Assembly (NCBI GenBank): GCA_017620055.1
Contig: JAFZRD010000189.1
Coordinates: forward strand, 1 to 24,261
Reading direction: 5' to 3'
Origin: Lachnospiraceae bacterium
GTDB taxonomy: Bacteria; Bacillota_A; Clostridia; Lachnospirales; Lachnospiraceae
Length of the DNA: 24,261 nt
This document shows, piece by piece, positions 8,013-21,798 of the stretch. Position numbers and translations under genes: made by a program. The notes beneath the pieces are model-generated. The model did not search any database and was not told the origin of the DNA. It saw only the letters and a list, made by a program, of their open reading frames with translations. How positions within the stretch are numbered: the first letter of the stretch is position 1; each line of letters begins with the position of its first letter.

Positions 8013-10155
8013 TCTTGCCGTCATCGCGGCGGTGATCATCTGTTTCATATTTATGCGTGATACGGGAACAACTGCGGCTCTTTGCTGGCTTGCAGTTGTT
8101 TTTGCCATATCCTTTTTTATGCGCCCCTTCGTGCCGATACGAAATCTGCGTATTCCCGATGCCGGGTTTGCCGTAACGTTCGGAGCCGGTCTCTTTTTGT
8201 GTTTTTATCTTGCGTGGACTTTCTCGGCGATAACCGGCTTTGAGTTTTCTGATGCGGCTGTTTATTCTTCTTTTGCGATCCTCGCGGTTGCGGGATATTT
8301 GATCAGGAGGTTTATCTGCAAAAAACCTTATGCGGAATTTTGCGATCTTAAGAGATCGTTTAACGGCTTTGCCGTATTTGCCGTTATCTTCCTCGCGTTT
8401 TTCTGGGTGATAGGATTCAATCCCGTTGTCGATCCGGGAACCGAGAACTACATGGACTTCGCATTCATGCAGACGATATACAGGCAGAAGAGTGCGATCC
8501 CGATGGATCCGTGGTTTAGCGGGACGAGGCTTAATTACTATTATCTCGGACAGGCCGTATCGGTGTATATGACAAGGCTGGCCCATACGACTCCGGAGTT
8601 CGGATACAACATGATGCTCGCCACGTTTGCGGGGATGGTGTTCATGATGGTGTTCGAACTTGTATCGGGTATTGCGGGAGCACTTTTTTCGGATACTGCC
8701 AGAAAAAGAAGATGCGCTTTTTCGGGAGGAGTTCTCGGAGGCGCCATCGCCGCGTTCGGAGCCAATCCGCACTGGCTTTTGTACGGGATCGTATCGCCCG
8801 TCCTCGGCCGCCTGTTCGGAAACCGCGATCTTGATTACTGGTTTTCGGACGCGACCGTTTACATCAGTACCGAGCTTGGCGATCCCGATAACGGCAAGAA
8901 CGAATTTCCGGCATATTCGGTCATCCTCGGGGATCTTCACGCGCACGTCATAAACGTGATATTTGTCCTGCCGCTTCTGGCACTGCTGTTTGACATATGC
9001 ATGCGAAGCGAAGAGGACGATGACAAAGGGGACGTATGGTATAAGCTGTTTCTAATATCGATGCTGCTCGGATATTACAAGGGTGCCAACTACTGGGATT
9101 TCGCGATCTATTTCGTGATAACCGGAGCGATGACCGTCTTCTTTGATCTTAAACGGTACGGTGCAAAACCGGGGACATTTGGCGGTATCGCTGCCAAAGC
9201 CTGCTTCGTGACGGCGGTATCGTTTGTTTCGATCCTTCCGTTCAGCCTGCGTTTTTCCAAGATGGAATCGGGACTGTTCCTCTGCGAAAATCACACGAGC
9301 ATATCCAAACTCTTCGTGTTGTGGTTTCTTCCGGTCGCAGTCTGTGTGGCACTGATCGTCTGGCTCTACAACACGGTTCCGGATGCACAGATCAAAAACA
9401 GGGCGGGAAGAAGCGCGCTTCTGGCGTCGATACTGTGTACGACAGGACTCGTGATCACACCCGAAGTCATCTACGTCAAGGACATATACGGAAGAGCGAA
9501 TCTGCGGTTCAATACGATGTTCAAGCTGACGTATCAGGCATATATACTGTTCGCCGTATTCATCGGGATCGCCTTTGCGGCGTCGCTCCTGCGATCACAC
9601 ACGGTCATTGCGACCGTATTCGTTGTTCTGACCATAGCGGACATATATTACACTCCGTTCTCGTGCCGTAAATGGCTCGGTGATTATTACGATGCGTCCG
9701 CAAGAAGCGGCATCTCATCGCTTGAGAGGCTGTACGGGGACGAGAGGTACAGCTTCGAACTTCGTGCCGCTGATGTGTTGAAACAGGACGATGCGAGGGT
9801 TCTTAATATCGTTGAGGGAGCCGGGGACAGTTATCAGCATTCGAGCGCACTGTCCGTATACTCGGGCGCATGCACGCCGGTGGGATGGTTCGTGCATGAG
9901 TGGATGTGGCACAATGCCCCCGAAGAGGTGCATGAGCGTGCCGATGAGGTGTCTTATTTCTACCGCTGCGGAGATAAAGGTTACTGCAGTGATTTTCTCA
10001 GGCGGTATGATATCGATTATATATTCGTGGGACCTGTCGAGACCGCCAAATACGCGGTCAACATGAACGGATTTTGGGATCTGGGGGATGTTGTCCTTGA
10101 TGAGATCCGGACAGATGCCGAGTATGCGCTCATAAAAGTGGACAGATCACGATAA
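7975..10155 (+). CDS. DUF2298 (YYY-domain) polytopic membrane protein
   Basis: A large integral membrane protein (726 aa) with a dozen or so hydrophobic segments, first at 12-27. The family is recognised by DPGTENYMDFAFMQ (153-166), the NYYYLG motif (187-192) that gives the YYY domain its name, and FPAYSVILGDLHAHV (311-325) with D320, H322 and H324 in an extracellular-type loop. The overall plan (conserved acid after the first helices, long polar C-terminal part from about residue 560) resembles GT-C-fold glycosyltransferases. Transfer of a sugar from a lipid carrier is a reasonable but unproven guess. It starts at ATG 7975 inside the previous gene, behind GAGGA at 7965. The -35 box of the next operon lies in its final codons. 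Its link to pentose catabolism is unclear. Confidence 0.85.
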   Translation: MDRFRKSFSDYSSLAVIAAVIICFIFMRDTGTTAALCWLAVVFAISFFMRPFVPIRNLRIPDAGFAVTFGAGLFLCFYLAWTFSAITGFEFSDAAVYSSFAILAVAGYLIRRFICKKPYAEFCDLKRSFNGFAVFAVIFLAFFWVIGFNPVVDPGTENYMDFAFMQTIYRQKSAIPMDPWFSGTRLNYYYLGQAVSVYMTRLAHTTPEFGYNMMLATFAGMVFMMVFELVSGIAGALFSDTARKRRCAFSGGVLGGAIAAFGANPHWLLYGIVSPVLGRLFGNRDLDYWFSDATVYISTELGDPDNGKNEFPAYSVILGDLHAHVINVIFVLPLLALLFDICMRSEEDDDKGDVWYKLFLISMLLGYYKGANYWDFAIYFVITGAMTVFFDLKRYGAKPGTFGGIAAKACFVTAVSFVSILPFSLRFSKMESGLFLCENHTSISKLFVLWFLPVAVCVALIVWLYNTVPDAQIKNRAGRSALLASILCTTGLVITPEVIYVKDIYGRANLRFNTMFKLTYQAYILFAVFIGIAFAASLLRSHTVIATVFVVLTIADIYYTPFSCRKWLGDYYDASARSGISSLERLYGDERYSFELRAADVLKQDDARVLNIVEGAGDSYQHSSALSVYSGACTPVGWFVHEWMWHNAPEEVHERADEVSYFYRCGDKGYCSDFLRRYDIDYIFVGPVETAKYAVNMNGFWDLGDVVLDEIRTDAEYALIKVDRSR

Positions 10156-10167
10156 AACGTGTAGAAT
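10139..10167 (+). promoter_or_regulatory. Sigma-A-type promoter for the FIST / hydrogenase-like signalling operon
   Basis: TGGACA (10139-10144) matches the -35 consensus at 5 of 6 positions. TAGAAT (10162-10167) matches the -10 at 5 of 6, and the spacer is exactly 17 bp. The predicted start of transcription is near 10174, about 29 nt before the FIST ATG at 10203, leaving room for the GGGAGGA site at 10193-10199. The -35 overlaps the 3' end of the DUF2298 gene. Confidence 0.65.
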
Positions 10168-10202: not shown

Positions 10203-11327
10203 ATGAAGAGGTGTTATATCGCACAGGCCGAGGATAAGGTCGGTACAAACGCTTATCCGAGGATCCTTGAACAGCTTAAAGAGAACGGTGAGCTCATTTC
10301 GCCGGTCCTTGTTATCTTTTCTTCCGACAATGCCAATTTCGGATGGTATTCCCGTATGTTGTCCAATTCATTCCCCGATGCGACCGTCATAGGTATGACT
10401 TCGGATGTGAACATATCACCGCAGGGTGTGGCCAGGGCCGGACTGAACGTTCTTGCCGTCACATCCGGTCTTAGCGTTTCATCGGGAGTACTGTTTGAGG
10501 TCAGCAGATATCCGAAGCGTTCCGCCGATTCGATAACAACCGCTCTCGAGAAGATCGAGAAGGAGAACACGGTATGTCTTGAGTTCAACGCGTCCGTGGG
10601 AAATTGCGAAGAACTTGTCATGGATACATTCCGGGAGGCTATGAAGGATACGGATATCCCGCTGTGCGGCGGTACCGCTTCAACGGCAGTCAACCCCGAC
10701 AAACCGTCAAGCGTATCGCTTAACGGGATACTGTATATGGACGCATGCGTGTTCGTGTTCATACATAACGAGAACGGAAAGGTTGCGATCGTCAAGGAGA
10801 ACATGTTCAAGCCGACGAAGCATTTCTTTACCGCGACCGATGTTGACTGTGACGCGAGAAAAGTATACGAGTTCGACCATAAGAACGCCACGGGTGTCAT
10901 GGCATCCGCAATGCAGATACCGGAGGACGAGCTCGGAGCGAACGCGTTCTTCCATCCGGTCGGAAGAATGGAGAATGACGAGCTGTACATCATTGCCGTC
11001 AAGGAGCAGTTTCCGGACGGCAGCATGAGCTTTTTCTCCAGGATATATAATCAGACAAGAGTGGTTCTGCTCGATCCGATAGATCCGGTCGAGGATGTGT
11101 GGGAAGAGACTTCGCGCACGGTCCATGAGATCATTCCGGATCCGGCGTTCTCGTTTGTATTTAACTGCTTCTCGAGAACGAGATATTTCACCGAGACCGG
11201 GAGGCTTGCCGGATATACGGATTTCCTGACAAAGGCATACGGTAACTTCATAGGAGTATCGGGACACGGCGAGCAGTATATGTACAGACACTTAAACCAG
11301 ACAATGATCATCCTTGCATTTGAATGA
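10203..11327 (+). CDS. FIST-domain sensory protein
   Basis: A 374-aa soluble protein covered by FIST_N (about 30-195) and FIST_C (about 215-355). FIST domains are small-ligand sensory modules found next to histidine kinases, chemoreceptors and c-di-GMP enzymes. Features seen are the LVIFSSDNANFGWYSRML start of the N-domain, VIGMTSDVNISPQGVARAGLNVLAV, the glycine-rich PLCGGTAST segment, and in FIST_C PVGRMENDELYI followed by a FVFNCFSRTRYF strand and GVSGHGEQYMY. There is no membrane segment or output domain, so it presumably passes its signal to a partner. The obvious candidate is the next gene, whose start lies 16 nt beyond its stop and which contains Fe-S, hydrogenase-like and EAL domains. 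The ligand is unknown. Confidence 0.88.
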   Translation: MKRCYIAQAEDKVGTNAYPRILEQLKENGELISPVLVIFSSDNANFGWYSRMLSNSFPDATVIGMTSDVNISPQGVARAGLNVLAVTSGLSVSSGVLFEVSRYPKRSADSITTALEKIEKENTVCLEFNASVGNCEELVMDTFREAMKDTDIPLCGGTASTAVNPDKPSSVSLNGILYMDACVFVFIHNENGKVAIVKENMFKPTKHFFTATDVDCDARKVYEFDHKNATGVMASAMQIPEDELGANAFFHPVGRMENDELYIIAVKEQFPDGSMSFFSRIYNQTRVVLLDPIDPVEDVWEETSRTVHEIIPDPAFSFVFNCFSRTRYFTETGRLAGYTDFLTKAYGNFIGVSGHGEQYMYRHLNQTMIILAFE

Positions 11328-11328
11328 T

Positions 11329-11335
11329 GAGAGGT
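11329..11335 (+). promoter_or_regulatory. Ribosome binding site selecting the TTG start at 11344
   Basis: GAGAGGT lies 8 nt before TTG 11344. The longest open frame would begin at TTG 11314, inside the FIST coding end and without a site. The N-terminus from 11344 (MRRYNDGMIVTNDRCVAC) goes straight into the ferredoxin motif, as expected. Confidence 0.65.
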
Positions 11336-11343
11336 GCACGGAA

Positions 11344-13911
11344 TTGAGAAGATATAACGACGGAATGATAGTGACGAATGACAGATGTGTGGCATGTAAC
11401 CATTGTGTGCATGTCTGTCCCGCCATGGGTGCGAACGTATCGTCCAATGACGATAACAGGATAAGCATTGACGTTTCGGAGAAGAACTGCATACACTGCG
11501 GAGCCTGTGTGAGGGAATGTGTTCACAGGGCGAGAGAGTATAACGACAGTCTTGATGACCTTCTTACGGACCTTCGAAAGGGGATGCAGGTGTCGGTCAT
11601 CGTGGATCCGACGTTCATGGTCGCCTACGGCAGGGAGTATTCGCTGAAGGTGTTCGGATATCTCAAGTCGATAGGGATAAAGGGTATCTATGACGGCTCC
11701 ATCGGCGGAGAAATCAGTCTGTTCTGCCATACGAAGTATCTTCGCGAGAACATAGACGAAAAGGGAAGAGCCGCAAAGTTCTACGCACATACGTGTCCGG
11801 GATTTTCCAATTACGTTTCCAGATACGCCCCGGATGCGCTTGACAAGTTCATTCCGGTCCAGCTTCCGAGCGTCTGTGCCGCGATATACTACCGCAAGTA
11901 CAAGGAGATCAAGGACAGATTTGCGCTTCTGTCGCCGTGTACCGCCATATATGACGAATTCAGTTCATACAATACCGGGAGGAACATTAACTATCTCATA
12001 GGATTTTCTTCCCTCTTTAAACATATCGGGGATACCGATCTGTCGGAGTTTTCAGCCGATCTTGATGAGATACATACCGGTATCGGACGTGCGATCGTTG
12101 AGAATGATGCTTTTTCGTTCATCGTATCCAGATATTTTTCACCAAAGCTCCTGTTCAAATCGCGTGTCGGGATCGATTCGAAGCTTGAGAAGCTCCTTTC
12201 ATCCGATCAGATGATGACGGGTGACAGCCACCCGACAATGGTCACTTTGGATCTTTGCAGGACCGGTTGTATCGACGGGCCGGCCGTGGACAGAAGCTCG
12301 TTCACGATGGACTATTCCATCCCGAAGTATTCAAAACTGTTTGACGAGGCGATGCAGGGTCAGGATGACGGCGAACTCTCACCGGATGAGCGGTATGCGA
12401 AGCTTGAGGAACAGTACTCGTTCCTGAACACGCGTGATTTCGAATGGGAAGGCGAAGAGGATTATCATCAGAGCTGTTCGGTTCCCGACGATGTTGTTGA
12501 AGAGATATTCAATTCGATGCACAAGACGACAAAGGTCAAGAAAGAACTTGACTGTCAGGCATGCGGATACAAGACGTGTTATGAGATGGTGTGTGCGGTC
12601 GCGAACGGGTATTCCAGGATAGAGGACTGCGTTCATTATCTCAATGACGAGATGAAGAAACAGATGCTTCTCGATCCGATGACGGGCCTCTTTAACCAGA
12701 GAGGGTTCTTCAAGGCCGTCACGAGACGTGTTGCGGATAATCCCGACAGGAAGTACGTACTCGTTGTTGCCGATATAAACGGACTCGGAGGTATCAACGA
12801 CCTGTATTCGAATACGGGCGGAGACATGGTCATATCATACGTTGCAAAGGTCATCGAGGAGTTTGCCGACAAGAGAGGCGAATGCGGCAGGATGGGCGCC
12901 GGAACTTTCGGATGCCTGTTCGAGAACACGCCGGAGAACATAGAACAGTTCAAGGCGGATACACAGCTGTCGGTGGAACATCTCGGTATAGAGTATCCCC
13001 TTACGTTAAAATGCGGCATATACGAAATGGACAATATGTCGGTATCGATCGGACGTGCGGCACTCTATGCGACGTATGCTTTCAGAACGAGCAAGGACAG
13101 AAGTCACAACACGTATATATTCTACACCGACAGGATGACGAAGATCATGTCGGAAGAGGCCGAAGTGACCCAGAAGATGAGATCGGCGATGGATAACGGA
13201 GAATTCACGCTGTATCTTCAGCCCAAATACGATCACGTTTCGGGCAGGATGGTCGGAGCGGAAGTTCTCTCAAGGTGGATCAAGCCCGACGGGACGATAG
13301 TCAGTCCGGGTCTGTTCATTCCGGTATTCGAGAAGAACGGATATATAACCGAGCTTGACAGGTTCGTGTGGAGAAGCTCGTTCGAGATGGTATCGAAGTG
13401 GCTGGAGGACGGTCATGGTGCGATACCGGTATCTGTCAATATATCAAGGATCAGCCTTGTTGATGAATCGATAGTGACCGTTATAGGGCAGCTTAAGGAT
13501 AAGTATCCCGAGGCAACGGAGTATATCCAGTTCGAGATCACCGAGAGCGCATATTCGGATAATGTCAGCGAGATATTCTCGCGGGTACAGAGCATAAGGG
13601 ATATGGGATTCAAGGTCAACATGGATGACTTCGGAAGCGGTTACTCTTCACTGAATCTATTGAAAGATGCGCCGATCGACATAGTAAAGCTTGATATGGG
13701 ATTCCTTCGCGGAACGCAGAACATGGACAGGGGCACGGTCATAATATCGGCCGTTGTCAATATGACGAGAGCGCTCGGGTTCGACCTCGTAGCGGAAGGC
13801 GTTGAAACAAAAGAACAGGCCGACATGCTGACGGAAATGGGATGTAACGTCATTCAGGGATTTTACTATGCAAGACCGATGCCTCAGGATGATTTTATAA
13901 AACTTCTCTGA
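11344..13911 (+). CDS. Ferredoxin / [FeFe]-hydrogenase-like sensor fused to degenerate GGDEF and intact EAL
   Basis: An 855-aa cytoplasmic signalling fusion, with a TTG start. Two [4Fe-4S] ferredoxin motifs come first (C15, C18, C21, C25 and C49, C52, C55, C59). An [FeFe]-hydrogenase large-subunit-like domain (about 80-330) follows. Its motifs HTCPGF (C151), SPCTAIYDE (C199) and DLCRTGC (C305, C309) align with H-cluster loops L1-L3, and all four cluster ligands are kept. The L2 lysine is Ile202 and one L1 cysteine is Thr150, which suggests sensing rather than turnover. A third Fe-S motif (C404, C407, C412, C429; PF04060-like) sits before the GGDEF domain (about 441-600), whose signature is GAGTF (518-522), so no cyclase activity is expected. 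The EAL domain (about 612-855) has E640, N699, E731, D761, D762, K782, E818 and Q838, so c-di-GMP hydrolysis is expected. It is co-transcribed with FIST. A redox, H2 or CO signal is inferred. Confidence 0.9.
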   Translation: MRRYNDGMIVTNDRCVACNHCVHVCPAMGANVSSNDDNRISIDVSEKNCIHCGACVRECVHRAREYNDSLDDLLTDLRKGMQVSVIVDPTFMVAYGREYSLKVFGYLKSIGIKGIYDGSIGGEISLFCHTKYLRENIDEKGRAAKFYAHTCPGFSNYVSRYAPDALDKFIPVQLPSVCAAIYYRKYKEIKDRFALLSPCTAIYDEFSSYNTGRNINYLIGFSSLFKHIGDTDLSEFSADLDEIHTGIGRAIVENDAFSFIVSRYFSPKLLFKSRVGIDSKLEKLLSSDQMMTGDSHPTMVTLDLCRTGCIDGPAVDRSSFTMDYSIPKYSKLFDEAMQGQDDGELSPDERYAKLEEQYSFLNTRDFEWEGEEDYHQSCSVPDDVVEEIFNSMHKTTKVKKELDCQACGYKTCYEMVCAVANGYSRIEDCVHYLNDEMKKQMLLDPMTGLFNQRGFFKAVTRRVADNPDRKYVLVVADINGLGGINDLYSNTGGDMVISYVAKVIEEFADKRGECGRMGAGTFGCLFENTPENIEQFKADTQLSVEHLGIEYPLTLKCGIYEMDNMSVSIGRAALYATYAFRTSKDRSHNTYIFYTDRMTKIMSEEAEVTQKMRSAMDNGEFTLYLQPKYDHVSGRMVGAEVLSRWIKPDGTIVSPGLFIPVFEKNGYITELDRFVWRSSFEMVSKWLEDGHGAIPVSVNISRISLVDESIVTVIGQLKDKYPEATEYIQFEITESAYSDNVSEIFSRVQSIRDMGFKVNMDDFGSGYSSLNLLKDAPIDIVKLDMGFLRGTQNMDRGTVIISAVVNMTRALGFDLVAEGVETKEQADMLTEMGCNVIQGFYYARPMPQDDFIKLL

Positions 13912-13941: not shown

Positions 13942-13973
13942 TAAGGGCGATGTGACATCGCCCTTATTATTTT
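13942..13973 (+). terminator. Strong intrinsic terminator after the hydrogenase-like/EAL gene
   Basis: A perfect 11-bp stem TAAGGGCGATG (13942-13952) pairs with CATCGCCCTTA (13956-13966) around a 3-nt loop and is followed by TTATTTT. It closes the FIST / hydrogenase-like operon 31 bp after the stop codon. Its T-tract runs into the -35 box of the next promoter. Confidence 0.9.
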
Positions 13974-14007: not shown

Positions 14008-15459
14008 ATGCGTAAATGTATCAGTGTGACAATGATAATAGCGTTAACTGTCATGTCTTCGTGCCTTTGTGCATGCGGCAAAGAGCCTGCCCCGAAGAGC
14101 AGTTTCGGGCAGGTCGATGCAATGCAGGACGGCACTCTTCTTATAGACAACTCTGTTCCCAGAGAAGAAAGAGAGACAGCTGAAGATGTTATCGAGGCGA
14201 CGAGCGCGTCAACGCTGAAGACCGCCAAGAGCCTTGATGTCGAGGACCTGCCGGAAGGTGTTGCAAGAATGGCCGGGCTGTGTGATGCGATCAATATGGC
14301 CTGCGTGGAGAAGCAGAGCGCATACTCGTTCGAAAACAGTGATTTCATGTGGCACTGTGTTCATCTGTATGTCGGAAACTGCACCGACAAAGCGTTAAAG
14401 CTGACAAGAGTGAGCAATTACGTCGATGTTAACCCCGGTATACTGAACCAGATCATGTATGCGATGTTCGGCAAGTTAAGAGCTATTCCGGATATACCCG
14501 ATGACGCGATGAAGTTTGAGGACGGTGTCGCACACATAATGATCACCAACTACCTGAAGTACCGCTTTTTGCTCGGTGACCGCGGAATGTCCGAGTGTGA
14601 GGTGAGAAGAGCGACGCAGTATTCCGACGGATCGCTCGAGATGGAAGTCGCTCTTGTGGACTCCGAGACGCGGGAGGAAACAGTCTGTTTCATATATTCG
14701 ATGAGAGCGAACACGAGGGATACAACGACATCCGCACTGTTCGACTACGAGATCACGGGTGCCAGAGCGGCGGACCGTGCAACTGCGGACAGGATAGAAG
14801 GTCGTCCCTTCCTTGTTCCCGTAGTGATGGTCTACGGTTTTGATGCTTACCCCGCGGGTGATGTCAGGAGTAACGAAGTCGAGGAAGTGCTTTATTATGA
14901 TTCGTTCAAAGAGCATGTTCCCGGGATGGATGAGCTGAACGCACGTATTTCCGGCGAGATGCTTGATAAGGCAAACAGTGAGGTGCCTGAAGGATCATGG
15001 CATGAGATATGCTCATACCCGATGTCGGATTCCGAGTATGTCCAGGTGGCGATAACATACGCACTGAGACCGGACGATACGGATGATCCCGAAATACACT
15101 GCTACAATTACTCCGTGAAAAAGAGCAGGGCCATGGATGAAAGTGATGCCATGTCCCTTTGCGATACAACAAGCGCTAAGCTGGCGACCCGTGTTTCGGA
15201 CCTCTGGGAGAAGTCGGAAGGAGCAAGACCCGCCGGGATATCCTACAGCGGCTTCATGATAAGGAAGGACGGATCCGTTGACGTGTTCTACAATCTGGAC
15301 GTTACGGATGCAGAGGGTGCGGCGCACAGGAAGGCTGTTGCGTATAACAGCGAAGCGGATTCCATTAGAAAAGCCTTCGAGGGAGAGGGTGTCATTCCGG
15401 AGTCCGAGACCGATACGATGAAACCGAAGCTTACGCATGGCCGGAAGGATCAACAATAA
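14008..15459 (+). CDS. Lipoprotein of unknown function, 483 aa
   Basis: I do not recognise a family. The protein starts with a type II signal peptide: MRKCISV, a hydrophobic core and lipobox L20-C21-A22-C23, so Cys23 should be lipidated and the protein anchored outside the membrane. An acidic, low-complexity linker (about 25-85) leads into a soluble body with alternating beta-like segments, such as SLEMEVALVDSETREETVCFIYSM and a similar-looking SVDVFYNLDVTDAEGAAHRKAVAYN near the end. The tail is charged. It is the first gene after the promoter at 13971 and overlaps or abuts the XpaC-like gene. An in-frame ATG at codon 9 exists but would remove the basic n-region, so 14008 is preferred despite lacking a ribosome binding site. 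Confidence 0.8.
   Translation: MRKCISVTMIIALTVMSSCLCACGKEPAPKSSFGQVDAMQDGTLLIDNSVPREERETAEDVIEATSASTLKTAKSLDVEDLPEGVARMAGLCDAINMACVEKQSAYSFENSDFMWHCVHLYVGNCTDKALKLTRVSNYVDVNPGILNQIMYAMFGKLRAIPDIPDDAMKFEDGVAHIMITNYLKYRFLLGDRGMSECEVRRATQYSDGSLEMEVALVDSETREETVCFIYSMRANTRDTTTSALFDYEITGARAADRATADRIEGRPFLVPVVMVYGFDAYPAGDVRSNEVEEVLYYDSFKEHVPGMDELNARISGEMLDKANSEVPEGSWHEICSYPMSDSEYVQVAITYALRPDDTDDPEIHCYNYSVKKSRAMDESDAMSLCDTTSAKLATRVSDLWEKSEGARPAGISYSGFMIRKDGSVDVFYNLDVTDAEGAAHRKAVAYNSEADSIRKAFEGEGVIPESETDTMKPKLTHGRKDQQ
15443..15448 (+). promoter_or_regulatory. Ribosome binding site favouring the XpaC start at 15461
   Basis: GGAAGG lies 12 nt before ATG 15461. The longer in-frame ATG at 15437 would overlap the lipoprotein gene by 23 bases and has no site upstream. 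The spacing is loose, so the choice is moderate. Confidence 0.45.
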
Positions 15460-15460
15460 G

Positions 15461-16780
15461 ATGCCGAACGATAAGAACAACAGATACGGAAAGGAATTCG
15501 AAAAAGCCTGGACCGAAGGCATGAAGAACAATGACTGGTCATTTCTGAACGATGTCATTGTAAAGAGTGTCGATAATTTTCTCGACGGTGTCGGTGACAG
15601 GATGAACGATGCACTTGCCTCATCGAAGAACGTATCGCCAAATGCGGTACCGTTGTCGCAAAGACGCGAGGACTTTTCAGGCAATACGCAGACTGCGAAC
15701 ATGCAGAGAAAGCTTCACGAGGAGCGCAGAAGAGTCCGTGAGGAAATGGAGCGGCAGCGCAGGGAGCGCGAAGCGGCAAGACGGTCAAAGCGGCTCGCAA
15801 AAAGAGGAGAGCCGACGACTCAGCTGGCATTTCCGTACAACAACTCGGCCTCTGCCATGTCCACGGTCAACTGCATCATAGGCGGTATCGGGACCGGTTT
15901 TACCGGGCTGTGGGCACTTGTCAGATTCGTATCAGCGGGGCTTACACTTTCCAATCTGTTCTTTCCGGTGGCACTTGTCGGTGTATTCGCGCTCGTTCTC
16001 GGAAAAGGTGTCCGTCAGGGCAAGATGGCTACGCTTGCAAACCGCTACGTGGAGATAATCGGTAAGAGGCAGTATATAGATATTTCGACACTGGCTCTTT
16101 CGGCCAACAAGTCGGAGAGAAAAGTGCTCCGCGAACTAAAGAAACTGCTGAGCCTCGGGTATTTTCCGCAGGGACATATAGACAGGGACGGCAAGACGTT
16201 CATCCTGACAGATGAAGTGTTCAATCACTATCTTGAACTTGAGACACATTCTTCTTCAAACGTCATAGATACGACTGCACGAAGCGAAGATGAACAGGAA
16301 TTCCCGGAGCTTCCGCCGGAAGAGTCTGCGGAGCTGTCCCGTATGATAAGAGAGGGGAACGATCATATTTCCCGTATCAGGGCTCTTAACAACGATATCC
16401 CGGGGATAGAGATATCAGCCAAACTTGACAGGCTCGAAGGACTTCTGAAAGAGATATTCGCACGGATCAGGGAGCATCCGGAGCAGATGTCGAGGATCCA
16501 TGAACTCATGGATTATTATCTGCCCACATCGGTCAAACTTGTCGATGCTTACAGGGAGTATGACAGGGTGAGCGAGCCGGGCAGGGAGATACTTGAAGCA
16601 AAGCGTGACATAGAAAATACCATGGACACGATAAACGATGCCCTCGGAAAGCTTCTCAACAAGCTGTTCAAGGACTCGGTCCTCGATGTCACGACGGATG
16701 CCCAGGTGCTTAAGACCGTATTGGTACAAAAAGGCCTTACAACCGGAATGGAAGGCGTGAAAGGAGATAAAAATGAGTGA
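15461..16780 (+). CDS. xpaC: XpaC-like protein (5-bromo-4-chloroindolyl phosphate hydrolysis family)
   Basis: A 439-aa protein from the preferred start (eight residues longer from 15437). The order is an N-terminal amphipathic part (1-60), a strongly basic coiled stretch rich in Arg and Glu (about 81-115), two hydrophobic helices (about 133-157 and 162-181), and a winged-helix-looking region beginning RYVEIIGKRQYIDISTLA with the XpaC-type VLRELKKLLSLGYFP helix. An acidic linker and a long C-terminal helical bundle follow (about 300-430). The family name comes from an early B. subtilis phenotype and the molecular role is not established. XpaC genes are typically paired with telA, as here, where the stop overlaps the telA start by 8 nt. 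Association with the membrane is predicted. Confidence 0.82.
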   Translation: MPNDKNNRYGKEFEKAWTEGMKNNDWSFLNDVIVKSVDNFLDGVGDRMNDALASSKNVSPNAVPLSQRREDFSGNTQTANMQRKLHEERRRVREEMERQRREREAARRSKRLAKRGEPTTQLAFPYNNSASAMSTVNCIIGGIGTGFTGLWALVRFVSAGLTLSNLFFPVALVGVFALVLGKGVRQGKMATLANRYVEIIGKRQYIDISTLALSANKSERKVLRELKKLLSLGYFPQGHIDRDGKTFILTDEVFNHYLELETHSSSNVIDTTARSEDEQEFPELPPEESAELSRMIREGNDHISRIRALNNDIPGIEISAKLDRLEGLLKEIFARIREHPEQMSRIHELMDYYLPTSVKLVDAYREYDRVSEPGREILEAKRDIENTMDTINDALGKLLNKLFKDSVLDVTTDAQVLKTVLVQKGLTTGMEGVKGDKNE

Positions 16781-17936
16781 AGTAATTGATGCCCAGGTAA
16801 CAGATCTGAAGGAGGCCGAGAGCGTGACGGGAGCGGATCCGTTCATGGATCTTATGAGCGCACCGAAACCGGCCGAGATCGTGGAAGCAAAAGAGGATGA
16901 TCTCTCACCGGAAGAGCAGGCACAGGTCGAGAAGTTCATGTCGCAGATCGATATAAGGAATTCCCAGCTCGTGCTCCAGTACGGCGCTGCGGCGCAGAAG
17001 AACGTGGCTGATTTTTCCGAAGGAGCGTTAAAGAGCGTACGGACCAAGGATATGGGCGAGATCGGAAACATGCTCACGGGAGTCGTTACGGAACTGAAAG
17101 GGTTCTCGGTTGAAGAACAGAAGGGCGGATTCCTCGGGCTGTTCAAGAAAACGGGAAACCAGCTCACATCGCTCAAGGCAAAATACGACAAAGCCGAAGT
17201 CAATGTCAACAAGATAAGCAAGGCAATGGAAGGACACCAGCAGGTACTCCTTAAGGATGTTGCGATGCTCGACAAGATGTATGACGAGAACCTTGACTAC
17301 TTCAAGCAGCTCAGTCTGTACATAATAGCCGGCAAGAAGAAGCTTGACGAGGCCAAGACAAAGGAGCTTCCGGAACTTCTTCAAAAAGCCGAGGAATCGG
17401 GACTGCAGGAAGACTCTCAGGCTGCAAGGGATTACGCTTCGATGATCGAGAGATTCGAGAAGAAGATATATGACCTTGAGCTTACGAGAAACATCTCAAT
17501 GCAGATGGCTCCGCAGATCCGTCTGATCCAGAGCAACGATACGGTCATGGCCGAGAAGATACAGTCAACGCTCGTGAACACCATCCCTCTGTGGAAGAGC
17601 CAGATGGTCATCGCGATCGGACTGGATCATTCACAGGATGCCGCAAGGGCTCAGCGCGAAGTTACGGATATGACGAACGAGCTTCTCAAGAAGAACGCAG
17701 AGGCACTCAAGATCGCGTCCGTCGAATCCGCAAAGGAAAGCGAAAGGGGTATCGTCGACATCGAGACTCTTACGACAACGAACCAGATGCTCATCGAGAC
17801 TTTTGATGAGGTTATGCAGATACAGGCCGAAGGAAGAGCCAAGAGACAGGCTGCCGAAGTCGAGCTCGGACGTATCGAAACGGAAATGAAAGATAAGATA
17901 CTGCAGATCAGCAGGGAAAGTCTGAAGGTTGAATAG
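16773..17936 (+). CDS. telA: TelA-family toxic anion resistance protein
   Basis: A 387-aa soluble, almost entirely helical protein of the TelA/KlaA family (PF05816), near the usual length of about 380. Family features include LRTKDMGEIGNML-like segments (VRTKDMGEIGNML here), GFSVEEQKGGFLGLFKK, the KISKAMEGHQQVLLKDVAMLDKMYDENLDYF helix and the conserved IPLWKSQMVIAIGLDHSQDAAR region. A glutamate-rich C-terminal coil contains TTTNQMLIETFDEVMQIQ. Members were named for tellurite resistance on plasmids, but chromosomal Firmicute copies are linked to cell-envelope stress, and the biochemical role is unknown. AAGGAG at 16761 gives a well-spaced site. The stop overlaps the TTG start of the first EAL gene by 8 nt, giving tight coupling to c-di-GMP signalling. 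Confidence 0.9.
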   Translation: MSEVIDAQVTDLKEAESVTGADPFMDLMSAPKPAEIVEAKEDDLSPEEQAQVEKFMSQIDIRNSQLVLQYGAAAQKNVADFSEGALKSVRTKDMGEIGNMLTGVVTELKGFSVEEQKGGFLGLFKKTGNQLTSLKAKYDKAEVNVNKISKAMEGHQQVLLKDVAMLDKMYDENLDYFKQLSLYIIAGKKKLDEAKTKELPELLQKAEESGLQEDSQAARDYASMIERFEKKIYDLELTRNISMQMAPQIRLIQSNDTVMAEKIQSTLVNTIPLWKSQMVIAIGLDHSQDAARAQREVTDMTNELLKKNAEALKIASVESAKESERGIVDIETLTTTNQMLIETFDEVMQIQAEGRAKRQAAEVELGRIETEMKDKILQISRESLKVE

Positions 17937-19854
17937 TTTTATCAGTTTTGATCTTTGCGGCCTCCTCGTTGAGGCGCTGATAATAGTATCTCTTGTGGTG
18001 CGCAGGATGACAAGGGGCCGTCTGAACAGATGGGCTCTTGTTCTCGTTGCGGATATTGTCGTGGCTACCGTCGCGGACATGCTCGGTCTCATTCTCGAGA
18101 GGATGGGAAGCGGGTATGTCATCCTTAAGTACATCACGAATGCTTTCGTGCTGTGGGGCACGTGCATGACGAGTGTGATCTTCTGCGGATTCCTGTTCGC
18201 ACTCATCGGCATATGGCATAAGCTCCATGAGCGTAAGGCACTGTCGTACACATACTATATACCGATATTTGTAATAACGGCGCTCGTGTTCATCGTCAAT
18301 CCGTTTACGAAGATGATCTATTACATAGACGGTAACGGCATTTATCACAGGGGACCGATGTTCTATTCGCTGTATGCTCTCGCATATATGTACATGTTCG
18401 TCGGATATTTCGAGATGATCAAGTACCGCAGGCTCTTTAACTCGCGGAAACTGTTCAGCGTTGTGATGGTGTTTGTCATTATGGTGTCATCTAGCATCTA
18501 CCAGGCGATCCATCCGGAACACTGCATTCAGATGTTCTTCACATCCGTCGCTTTCTTCATGATGATGATTGGGGTACAGTCACCGGAAGAGAGGATGCAC
18601 GGATCCACGGGGCTGTTCTCGATGAATGCGTATATCCAGGATATCAACAGGTATCACGAACTTAATGCGCCGGTCGGTATCACTCTGTCGGTGATGACCA
18701 ACTACAGTGCGCTCATAGAGATGCTCGGATACTTTACGGTCCAGGAGATAATCGTAGCACTTGCGAAAAGGCTTGAGGAATGGGCAAAGCAGTGCAGGGC
18801 CGATGTCGATCTGTATTATCTGGGCGGCGGAAGATATGCGGTTATCACCGATGACAGATATGAGGATGACATGATCAGGATCGCGCAGGAGATCAATGCC
18901 GTACTGGCCCGCGAGATCGAGATAAGCGAGATGTCGGTAAAGGCAATGAACAATGTCTGTTTCATCGCCTGCCCCAAAGACATCGATGATCCGAAGTTTT
19001 TGATCTCGTTTGACGGCCGTCTCGAGATGGAAGCATATACGGGAGAACTACGCTATGCGGAGAAACTGTTTGACAAGAAGCGTTTCGAACTGCGCCATGA
19101 TATCGCTAAAGTCATTGACCGCGCTTTTTCGGATGATCTGTTCTATCTGGAATATCAGCCGGTCTATTCCGCAAAGGACAAAAGGTTTGTGCGCGCGGAA
19201 GCATTCCTGCGGCTCAACGATCCGGAATTCGGACAGATCAGGCCCGATATACTTATAGGTGAGGCGGAGAGACTGAATTCGATACACGCCATAACCGCAT
19301 ATGTTATCGAAGAGGCATGCAGGTTCGTATCGATGCCGGAGTTTCTTCTGATGGGGCTTGAATTTGTGGAGATCAACCTTTCACCGGTACAGTGTATGTG
19401 GAGCGACCTTCTGAGTGTCATGCTGTCGACGCTCAAGACATACAATGTCCAGCCGAAGAACATATGCTTCAACATCACGGACGTGGATGGCAAGGATATG
19501 TTTGAGAAGATGAGGGACAATGTCAATGCGCTCTCCCAGGTCGGTTTCGTGATATTCATGGATGATTTCGGAGCAGGTATATTCGAGGTCGAACGTATAG
19601 CCAAGATGCCGCTGTCCGGTATCAAACTCGACAGGACTTTTGTACGTGAAGGCATGAGGGGTGACAACAGTGCGGTGTTTGAAGGCAGCCTTCGTATGAT
19701 CGAGGACCTCGAGATCGATCCGGTCGCGGTAGGTGTCGAAGATGAGGAAATGAAGATGAGGCTTGAGAGCCTCGGATGTAACTATATGCAGGGTTATCAC
19801 TTCTGCAGGCCGCTTTCAAAGAGCGAACTGATAAGATTCATTCTGATGAGATAG
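17929..19854 (+). CDS. 7-TM protein with degenerate GGDEF and degenerate EAL domains
   Basis: A 641-aa membrane signalling protein. Seven hydrophobic segments (about 8-24, 35-56, 64-95, 108-124, 143-162, 176-192, 199-216) precede a GGDEF-like region (about 222-350) in which the signature reads GGGRY (299-303). The EAL domain (about 395-641) keeps E424 of EAF, N483, D545, D546, K566 and Q621. It has lost the metal-binding Glu of EITE (N515) and the Glu of AEGVE (V601), so hydrolysis is unlikely. Binding of c-di-GMP or regulation of a partner is more plausible. The TTG start overlaps telA; later Met codons would cut into the first helix, and EAL2 has a matching N-terminal helix. The protein is paralogous to the next gene over its whole length. 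Confidence 0.85.
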   Translation: MNSFISFDLCGLLVEALIIVSLVVRRMTRGRLNRWALVLVADIVVATVADMLGLILERMGSGYVILKYITNAFVLWGTCMTSVIFCGFLFALIGIWHKLHERKALSYTYYIPIFVITALVFIVNPFTKMIYYIDGNGIYHRGPMFYSLYALAYMYMFVGYFEMIKYRRLFNSRKLFSVVMVFVIMVSSSIYQAIHPEHCIQMFFTSVAFFMMMIGVQSPEERMHGSTGLFSMNAYIQDINRYHELNAPVGITLSVMTNYSALIEMLGYFTVQEIIVALAKRLEEWAKQCRADVDLYYLGGGRYAVITDDRYEDDMIRIAQEINAVLAREIEISEMSVKAMNNVCFIACPKDIDDPKFLISFDGRLEMEAYTGELRYAEKLFDKKRFELRHDIAKVIDRAFSDDLFYLEYQPVYSAKDKRFVRAEAFLRLNDPEFGQIRPDILIGEAERLNSIHAITAYVIEEACRFVSMPEFLLMGLEFVEINLSPVQCMWSDLLSVMLSTLKTYNVQPKNICFNITDVDGKDMFEKMRDNVNALSQVGFVIFMDDFGAGIFEVERIAKMPLSGIKLDRTFVREGMRGDNSAVFEGSLRMIEDLEIDPVAVGVEDEEMKMRLESLGCNYMQGYHFCRPLSKSELIRFILMR

Positions 19855-19863
19855 GGTATTGTT

Positions 19864-21798
19864 ATGGGTAATGATGTAGCCTCATATGATTATTGCGCAC
19901 TGGCGCTGCTGACTATAATCGTGGTCTACTATTTCCGCACCACCGTGCGCGGTACATACAGGGCCATGGTGATGTCGCTCATCGTATTTGCGACGATGGC
20001 AGCGGCTGCGTGCGATGCAACAAGAGTCAGGTTTGCGGGCCTTGATGTCGTTTCCGACTTCAGGTTCCTGAACGTGAACTTCGCCTATTTCCTGTCTCTG
20101 GCATTCATACCGTTCCTGTTCCTCATATACGTTCTCGCGACGACCGATATGTGGCACAAGATCACCATGCTTTGGATGCATGTTGTCATGTGTATCTTTC
20201 CGATGTTTGTGTATGTGTCCGTTCTTGTGCTCAATTTCTTCTATCCGGTCGCGTTCAGGGTCATTCCGGGGAAGGATCTTGCGGTGTATGCCGGATATTA
20301 TCTCGGATATATCGTTTTCGTGCTGTACATGTTCATAACGTTCATGTTCGTCAAGAGAAACCTTGAACCTATCGACAGGAAGAGGTATTACGTTCTTCTC
20401 GCACCGATCACGATAGTTCTGCTCGGCATGATAATACAGATGATCCTGCCGAGACATCACATACTTTGCTTTACGATCACGATGTGTATCATGACGCTGA
20501 TACTTATCAACAAGAGGGTGGAGGACTCGATCGATCCTTCGACCGGAATGCACACATACAAAGTGTTTGCCGAGGATATGGATACCAATTTCAAGAGCGG
20601 CAAACAGATGGAACTGATCCTCCTGAACATAGTCAATTTCAAATATGCAATGAGGATGGTCGGATATGATGCGATGCTGGCGATGATGTCGCCCGTTTCC
20701 GCGGAGATACTCCGTATCATGAGGAAGTATCATGCACAGTTCATGTGTTACTACAACGGCGACGGCAAGTTCGCGATAGAACTGTCCAGAAAGCATTTTG
20801 CTTTCGCGTCCGAGATAGCCGATGAGATAGGCCGCACGATCAGACAGAACATAAGGATGGAGATATCGGATTTCGAACTTGAGATCAATACATGCCTTGT
20901 CGTCTGCCCCGATGACATCTCGGACATCAATTCGCTGTTCATGCTCATAACCGATCTTGACAAGGCCCAGTCGCAGGGCAGGGTCGTATCGGCTTCGAGC
21001 ATTACCGCCACCGATGATTTCAAGATCAAAAAAGAGATGTCGGCGATAATAGAACGTGCGCTCACAAACCATTATTTTTCGGTGTTCTATCAGCCCATAT
21101 ATGATACGAAGACCGGAAAGTTCTCTTCTGCCGAAGCGCTGCTGCGCCTAAGAGATCCGAAGTACGGATATATCTCTCCGGAGATGTTCATACCGATCGC
21201 CGAGAAGAACGGAGCTATCCATTCGATCGGAAGCTTTGTTCTCGAAGAGGTCGTCAAGTTCATTGCATCCCCTGATTTTGAAGATCTCGGAGTGGATTAT
21301 ATCGAGATCAATCTGTCGGCTATGCAGTGCCTCAGGGGCGACCTTGCCGAGGAGATCATCAGCCTTTGCAGCAGATACGATGTCGATCATGAGAAGATCA
21401 ATCTCGAGATCACGGAGACAGCCAGTGCTTATTCACAGTCGAAGCTATACGGCAATATCTCGACGCTCTCGGAACACGGATTCTCATTCTCGCTTGACGA
21501 TTTCGGTACCGGATACAGCAACCTTATGAGGATAGCCTCACTGCCGCTTGATATCATCAAACTTGACAGGGCGTTCGTTATCATGGAGGAGAGCGGAGGA
21601 CATCATATCATAATCAGAAACCTGATCGGGATGATCAAGAGCATGAAGAAGAAGGTAGTGGTCGAGGGGATAGAGACCAAAGAGATGCTCGATTCGTTCA
21701 CCGAGATGGGTGCCGATGAAGTACAGGGGTTCTATTTCTCGAGACCTCTCACCAAACAGGCTTATATCAGATTCCTGAAAGAGAAGGCTACCGCCTGA
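19864..21798 (+). CDS. 7-TM protein with degenerate GGDEF and catalytically complete EAL domain
   Basis: A 644-aa membrane-bound probable c-di-GMP phosphodiesterase. Hydrophobic segments run from about residue 8 to 217 with the same layout as the preceding paralogue. The GGDEF-like region (about 223-375) has GDGKF (299-303) in place of the signature and should not make c-di-GMP. The EAL domain (about 395-644) has EALLR (E424), N483, E515 and E518 of LEITET, D545 and D546 of DDFGTG, K566, E601 of VEGIET and Q621, the full set for metal-dependent hydrolysis to pGpG. The ATG is 9 nt after the previous stop with only a weak AGGGT site, consistent with coupled translation. It is probably the active partner of the degenerate upstream copy. 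The N-terminal helices may sense a membrane or extracellular signal; the ligand is unknown. Confidence 0.9.
   Translation: MGNDVASYDYCALALLTIIVVYYFRTTVRGTYRAMVMSLIVFATMAAAACDATRVRFAGLDVVSDFRFLNVNFAYFLSLAFIPFLFLIYVLATTDMWHKITMLWMHVVMCIFPMFVYVSVLVLNFFYPVAFRVIPGKDLAVYAGYYLGYIVFVLYMFITFMFVKRNLEPIDRKRYYVLLAPITIVLLGMIIQMILPRHHILCFTITMCIMTLILINKRVEDSIDPSTGMHTYKVFAEDMDTNFKSGKQMELILLNIVNFKYAMRMVGYDAMLAMMSPVSAEILRIMRKYHAQFMCYYNGDGKFAIELSRKHFAFASEIADEIGRTIRQNIRMEISDFELEINTCLVVCPDDISDINSLFMLITDLDKAQSQGRVVSASSITATDDFKIKKEMSAIIERALTNHYFSVFYQPIYDTKTGKFSSAEALLRLRDPKYGYISPEMFIPIAEKNGAIHSIGSFVLEEVVKFIASPDFEDLGVDYIEINLSAMQCLRGDLAEEIISLCSRYDVDHEKINLEITETASAYSQSKLYGNISTLSEHGFSFSLDDFGTGYSNLMRIASLPLDIIKLDRAFVIMEESGGHHIIIRNLIGMIKSMKKKVVVEGIETKEMLDSFTEMGADEVQGFYFSRPLTKQAYIRFLKEKATA

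Follow-up and report, generated by a model that had tools for sequence, protein, structure and literature searches.

Sensory [FeFe]-hydrogenases of groups C and D (HydS; TmHydS, TamHydS and HydDB classes C1 to C3) combine two N-terminal [4Fe-4S] motifs with an H-domain that carries the cubane cysteines of the H-cluster, and in group C the signalling part follows a Cx2Cx4Cx16C motif. In HydDB (2016), [FeFe] group C comprises kinase-linked (C1), MCP-linked (C2) and phosphatase-linked (C3) proteins (PMC5037454). The C-terminal [4Fe-4S] cluster of HydS is described as poorly understood in its role, with its study only begun (PMC13104023). Other hydrogenase relatives also bear comparison. NARF/Nar1 has a role in eukaryotic Fe-S assembly, and [NiFe] group 2c consists of NiFe enzymes unrelated to the [FeFe] enzymes. 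HydDB excludes NARF as a hydrogenase homologue that does not metabolise H2, and describes [NiFe] group 2c as linked to diguanylate cyclases and as a proposed hydrogenase-type sensing link to c-di-GMP (PMC5037454). From the c-di-GMP side, NosP and CdpA are cases in which FIST–FIST_C, placed upstream of a c-di-GMP enzyme or inside one, has been tied to the sensing of NO or heme (PMC8846402). The words hydrogenase, iron-sulfur, Fe-S and ferredoxin each occur zero times in this review, whose subject is the stimuli of c-di-GMP signalling. Among the literature matches listed, in a search that mostly covered papers outside subscription journals, no hydrogenase–EAL protein was described in a title or the opening of an abstract.

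In the window (the whole stretch of 24,261 nucleotides that was analysed), a sensor–GGDEF–EAL protein of 855 residues is encoded by a single open reading frame with a TTG start (11344..13911, + strand), preceded by GAGGTG (11331..11336, +), which as read from the sequence resembles a ribosome-binding site. The sequence-only reading had proposed that ferredoxin, H-domain-like, third Fe-S, dead GGDEF and EAL modules lie together in this one polypeptide. The Pfam profiles Fe_hyd_lg_C, PF04060, GGDEF and EAL, named there as the check, all matched the translated protein and confirm the architecture, with the Fe_hyd_lg_C match found in the interval on which the proposal had hung (residues 80-330). 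From the N terminus, the protein consists of a 2x[4Fe-4S] ferredoxin module (Pfam Fer4_10, residues 8-62; 11365..11529, +), an H-domain-like module recognised from Fe_hyd_lg_C (PF02906), the predicted fold and the residue census (residues 83-313; 11590..12282, +), a C-terminal Fe-S motif of the form Cx2Cx4Cx16C (PF04060, residues 402-430; 12547..12633, +), a degenerate GGDEF domain that reads GAGTF and contains the segment DINGLGGINDLY (Pfam and family alignment; 12670..13059, +), and an EAL phosphodiesterase domain (Pfam and alignment; 13174..13878, +). In structure comparison, the predicted fold of the H-domain matches hydrogenases. The signalling part follows the C-terminal motif, as in group C HydS, and the spacing of that motif is the one given for group C/D HydS in PMC8163306. 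However, only 12 residues separate the FeS and GGDEF matches, and no PAS domain was matched by Pfam after the C-terminal cluster at E 0.001, in contrast to group C HydS. The protein further differs from group C/D HydS in its GGDEF–EAL output, in the replacement of the residues equivalent to Lys358 and Ala230 of CpI, and in the FIST gene that adjoins it. An EAL output is absent from classes C1 to C3 of HydDB (2016; PMC5037454), as the sequence-only reading had implied.

A homologue search with the sensor part as query against 5.8 billion proteins returned 61 relatives, 52 of which combine the Fe_hyd, FeS, GGDEF and EAL domains. Of the other nine, two are truncated sensors and one is a fragment, and in six the sensor is joined to an MCP (1), GGDEF (1) or kinase-type (4) module; the named relatives with EAL number four, all Lachnospiraceae MAGs. 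In the family census set (P0001-P0055, n = 55), all 16 Fe-S cysteine positions are invariant (55/55), including the eight ferredoxin cysteines and the four cubane ligands of the H-cluster (C151, C199, C305 and C309), which had already been picked out in the window. Among the 53 full-length members, none has GG(D/E)EF and all retain ten EAL catalytic-site positions, intact in the window; the GGDEF domain had been read as dead and the EAL domain as complete. The sensor–EAL family is real and conserved, and the description of a sensory-hydrogenase-like Fe-S sensor fused to a probable c-di-GMP phosphodiesterase is supported. The DINGLGGINDLY stretch is conserved within the close family, and the dead GGDEF domain could retain a nucleotide-binding role. 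Relatives appear to make c-di-GMP, because 26 of the 30 GGDEF loci read in two of their genomes (G001 and G007) carry an intact GGDEF or GGEEF.

The description of the fusion itself stood, but the sequence-only reading had overlooked the adjoining gene, which ends 16 bases upstream of the sensor–EAL start. This gene encodes a FIST_N–FIST_C protein of 374 residues, a proposed partner sensor (10203..11327, +; Pfam FIST 78.1 bits, FIST_C 33.0 bits), and FIST lies directly upstream of the sensor in 10/10 close loci, namely nine related Lachnospiraceae loci and the window. A promoter-like site, TGGACA-17-TAGAAT, precedes the FIST gene (10139..10167, +), a consensus-scan match to a pattern found 15 times in the scanned stretch against 5.9 expected (sd 2.4), and an intrinsic-terminator-like hairpin of 11 pairs follows the sensor gene (13942..13966, +), from a pattern found five times in the stretch against 2.8 expected. 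The arrangement suggests that the FIST and sensor–EAL genes form a two-gene operon bracketed by these promoter-like and terminator-like patterns.

For the predicted structure of the FIST protein (AF2 pLDDT 92.1), the four best Foldseek hits are chains of FBXO22, a FIST-type protein. When the FIST alignment was compared with PDB sequences, all hits were at chance level. The protein has the FIST_N and FIST_C domains of NosP and scores 101.1 bits, below the NCBIfam NosP cut-off of 450. Cys322 is invariant in the ten FIST partners aligned, none of the histidines is invariant, and two are kept in 9/10. As in the NosP systems (NosP–NahK–NarR and CdpA; PMC8846402), a FIST–FIST_C sensor would feed an EAL phosphodiesterase; unlike in those systems, the partner is an Fe-S/H-domain EAL protein, and the FIST protein falls far below the NosP model cut-off. 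The FIST alignment found matches in 67 of 392 Lachnospirales genomes, and in the best 30 Lachnospirales loci the gene directly after FIST is an MCP-domain ORF in 27 and sensor–EAL in 3. These MCP-domain ORFs span 318-352 codons stop to stop, two being confirmed by Pfam, and the 16 examined contain 0 to 4 cysteines each, so FIST can pair with a partner without such Fe-S motifs. In the class, FIST occurs in 15 of 391 genomes. At 14 further FIST loci that were read (L188-L201, with L202-L207 left out), FIST precedes an MCP ORF in eight and a kinase-like ORF in one, and a small panel recognised nothing in five. FIST followed by a small MCP gene is a recurrent pair in Lachnospirales (L131-L157, L188-L193, L195, L199). 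From this gene pairing, FIST appears to be a separate sensor protein that signals to the product of the next gene.

When the window protein is set against CpI, Ala230 is replaced by Asp88, Cys299 by Thr150, Lys358 by Ile202 and Met497 by Asp303, at positions that face the [2Fe] subcluster in CpI; Lys358 of CpI lies three residues past the second cubane cysteine. Lys358 is probably required for [2Fe] binding, a role on which the literature search gave no passage and for which its conservation in the hydrogenases read here speaks. Across the 55 family proteins, the Lys358 position is I in 43, V in 4, M in 3, Q in 2, and E, R and K in one each, Ala230 is replaced by Asp in 54 and by Ser in one, and Glu361 is retained in 52. 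Lys358 and Ala230 are both invariant in the 41 sensors compared from outside the clade, which come from 37 loci and 4 metagenomic proteins and include sensors fused to EAL in Ruminococcus and Treponema. Two proteins left out of that set, P0061 and P0062, have Lys at the 358 position (the Ala230 position lies outside the count). Lys358 is also present in all 24 readable hydrogenase loci of the 26 found in a search of 20 genomes. Replacement affects 5 of 7 conserved sites in an assumed set of [2Fe]-pocket positions, versus 36 of 105 others, an enrichment that is not significant (p 0.10). Changes at Cys299, Met353 and Met497 are also seen in genuine sensory hydrogenases (PMC8163306), and the weight therefore rests on Lys358 and Ala230. 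Because these residues of the [2Fe] site are replaced, we call the sensor–EAL protein HydS-derived and not a sensory hydrogenase.

The genomes of close relatives hold less altered copies. All nine encode a HydA of canonical appearance together with one or more additional PF02906 proteins, and MCP-linked paralogues keep Lys358 in the four close-relative genomes read (L085, L086, L087 and L010, the last from the L005 assembly), so the EAL protein is the diverged copy. The MCP-linked sensors are ~28-33% identical to the window sensor, have the same Fe-S layout and occur alongside the EAL protein in close-relative genomes. In contrast to it, they keep Lys358 and Ala230, have an MCP output and have no FIST gene in the surrounding DNA examined; judged by output alone, they would belong to the 'chemotactic' class C2 of HydDB.

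Of the 13 FIST-linked genomes, four have HydE, HydF and HydG over cut-off and nine have none of these maturases; by the same cut-off, 4 of 9 close-relative genomes encode all three. HydG is absent in 4 of 13 unlinked genomes, two of which have HydF (Fisher p for HydG, FIST-linked versus unlinked, 0.12). Eight of the nine maturase-negative FIST-linked genomes still carry other hydrogenase-like genes, which makes assembly gaps a live explanation for the missing maturases. The named FIST-linked records are MAGs, and the genes for HydE, HydF and HydG often lie together. On these grounds, maturase absence was set aside as proof of H-cluster loss. The one clean case is G268, the genome of locus L126, which has no HydE, HydF or HydG over cut-off and in which PF02906, apart from L126 itself, matches only a frame of 113 aa that contains stops. 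The L126 protein has lost one cubane cysteine and Glu361, and Pfam still matches its ferredoxin module and PF04060. Canonical-looking HydA proteins (TSCCP[GA]W, MPCTAKK, MACRRGC) are found at L061-L068 and L070, in nine genomes, five of which have no HydE, HydF or HydG over cut-off.

Loss of Lys358 coincides with the FIST gene. Lys358 is lost in 13 of 14 FIST-linked loci versus 0 of 37 loci without FIST seen in their flanks (metagenomic proteins being outside this count), with a Fisher p of 3e-11 that is overstated, since the tree shows one gain of FIST and at least two Lys changes. Only one independent pair on the tree bears on the association, and it shows no Lys difference. Absence of FIST is weak at three loci with short upstream DNA (L014, ~0.3 kb; L042, ~1.0 kb; L122, ~1.2 kb). 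Alignment A2 held 40 of 53 loci plus the window, 13 being left out (L021 for a stop, others as short, truncated or judged redundant), and the tree had 68 rows with the trait columns left in. On this tree, two or more changes on starred branches are required to explain the EAL outputs, and FIST changes once in the window's lineage. The sister pair L120 and L122 has sensor–EAL, no FIST seen and an outside-type pocket with Lys; on the next branch, L119 has FIST and again an outside-type pocket with Lys. The remaining clade members have changed pockets, except for P0054, which lies inside it on a weak branch and is, with L119, one of two Lys-keeping clade members. The branches of L126, L121 and P0055 are long and unsure, and the L121–P0055 join may be false according to a tool warning. 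The branching suggests an order from sensor–EAL without FIST and with Lys, through FIST with Lys, to FIST with a changed pocket, as a single history with no independent replication.

We favour, at a probability of about 0.5, a model in which the sensor–EAL protein is an H-cluster-less descendant of group C/D HydS whose [4Fe-4S] redox hub, together with the FIST partner, sets c-di-GMP hydrolysis. In this process, the FIST and sensor–EAL genes would work together as one signalling unit of two genes. The first 432 residues of the sensor–EAL protein would derive from the sensory [FeFe]-hydrogenases of groups C and D, with the [2Fe] half of the H-cluster gone, and could carry as many as four [4Fe-4S] clusters: two of the ferredoxin type, the former H-cluster cubane and one C-terminal. 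This chain may exchange electrons with cellular ferredoxin or suffer oxidant damage, and the FIST partner may gate its state, by ligand binding or by reaction at Cys322. The state of the chain would be relayed through the dead GGDEF domain, perhaps still a GTP-binding allosteric domain, and c-di-GMP hydrolysis by the EAL domain would thereby be turned up or down. The protein thus modelled probably reads the redox state of the cell or the signal of its partner, not hydrogen. Its resemblance to NARF/Nar1, as a hydrogenase homologue without H2 metabolism, would be functional only, and NARF/Nar1, unlike it, has no signalling output; [NiFe] group 2c differs in having the opposite enzyme activity.

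The sequence-only reading had instead put forward H2 or CO as a signal. A working H2 (or CO) sensor, in which the H-cluster would still assemble and H2-driven reduction control the EAL domain, would account for the conserved cubane cysteines, for Glu361 and for the hydrogenase fold. It could draw on the three maturases in 4/9 close-relative genomes and on the tolerance of sensory hydrogenases for changes at 299, 353 and 497 (PMC8163306). However, the Lys358 position is non-Lys and the Ala230 position is Asp in 54/55 proteins each, set against 41/41 sensors outside the clade that keep both residues and against the Lys-keeping MCP-linked paralogues in four genomes. The 9/13 FIST-linked genomes without maturases point the same way, an argument weakened by the other hydrogenase-like genes in eight of the nine. 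H2 or CO sensing is not supported by these residues, and we consider it unlikely.

Two further explanations give the clusters or the FIST protein a different part. If the former hydrogenase surface were a docking scaffold, FIST alone would sense, bind that surface and switch the EAL domain, with the Fe-S clusters structural. The changed [2Fe] pocket fits such a role, as do the cysteine-poor MCP ORFs that follow FIST in 27/30 loci, but 16 cysteines kept in 55/55 proteins are a stronger constraint than a scaffold would seem to require, and L126 retains its ferredoxin and PF04060 matches with a cubane cysteine gone; this alternative appears doubtful. Less likely again is a damage sensor for oxidants (O2 or NO), in which cluster loss rather than reversible electron transfer would switch the phosphodiesterase and FIST would have the role put forward for NosP and CdpA, the binding of NO or heme. 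The ties of FIST–FIST_C to NO and heme sensing near c-di-GMP enzymes (PMC8846402) speak for it, and strict anaerobes may need such alarms. However, the FIST protein stays far from the NosP cut-off, and its aligned homologues share no invariant histidine, only two kept in 9/10.

More tentatively, the redox-hub model may define a new class of c-di-GMP sensor, in which a hydrogenase without its organometallic site would use the [4Fe-4S] wiring, all of it retained, to gauge the redox state of ferredoxin and FIST would have been recruited to supply the signal. L120/L122, L119 and the window clade would then be preserved steps from an H2 sensor to a FIST-coupled redox sensor. If true, c-di-GMP in gut Lachnospiraceae would be tied to the redox state of their fermentation, and the series of sensors would be natural material on how a sensory hydrogenase becomes a purely Fe-S sensor. 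The EAL output is directly assayable, which would make the role of the HydS C-terminal [4Fe-4S] cluster easier to test, and the pairs of FIST and signalling genes in Lachnospirales give another way into the question of which signals FIST proteins detect.

The search patterns had no match in viral contigs, and a plasmid search gave 12 records, all distant matches of <60% identity. In the sensor–EAL protein PHROGs matched the GGDEF/EAL part only, the FIST protein had no PHROGs match, PADLOC matched 0/8 proteins, and the tRNA search found no tRNA. No Rfam family reached the gathering threshold within the window, which thus holds no known c-di-GMP riboswitch.

The genes farther downstream of sensor–EAL encode a protein unmatched in Pfam, a PF10112 protein, TelA, a pair of EAL proteins and an HDOD protein. 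Both EAL genes of this downstream group are present in 8/9 related loci, L005 being without them in the DNA examined, and the upstream sugar-transport genes are conserved in all seven loci whose DNA reaches them. The PF10112 and TelA genes (window 15437-17936; TelA 410.9 bits) occur together in the c-di-GMP cluster in 8/9 related loci. The two adjoining EAL proteins (17929-19854 and 19864-21798) have long hydrophobic N-termini; by eye, the catalytic motifs of the former are altered (FNITD, VGVED) and those of the latter intact, and the two suggest a receptor/enzyme pair. A second, independent sensor–EAL fusion with an outside-type [2Fe] pocket occurs at L013, L014, L022, L035, L051 and L124 (Ruminococcus, Treponema and one other genome), and a phosphodiesterase genuinely controlled by H2 is more likely to be found among these loci. 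At L044, from an Atopobiaceae MAG, the same sensor is fused to a GGDEF domain, and at L119 (2031-5495) a protein of 1154 aa with two GGDEF stretches and an EAL domain is encoded directly after the sensor–EAL gene.
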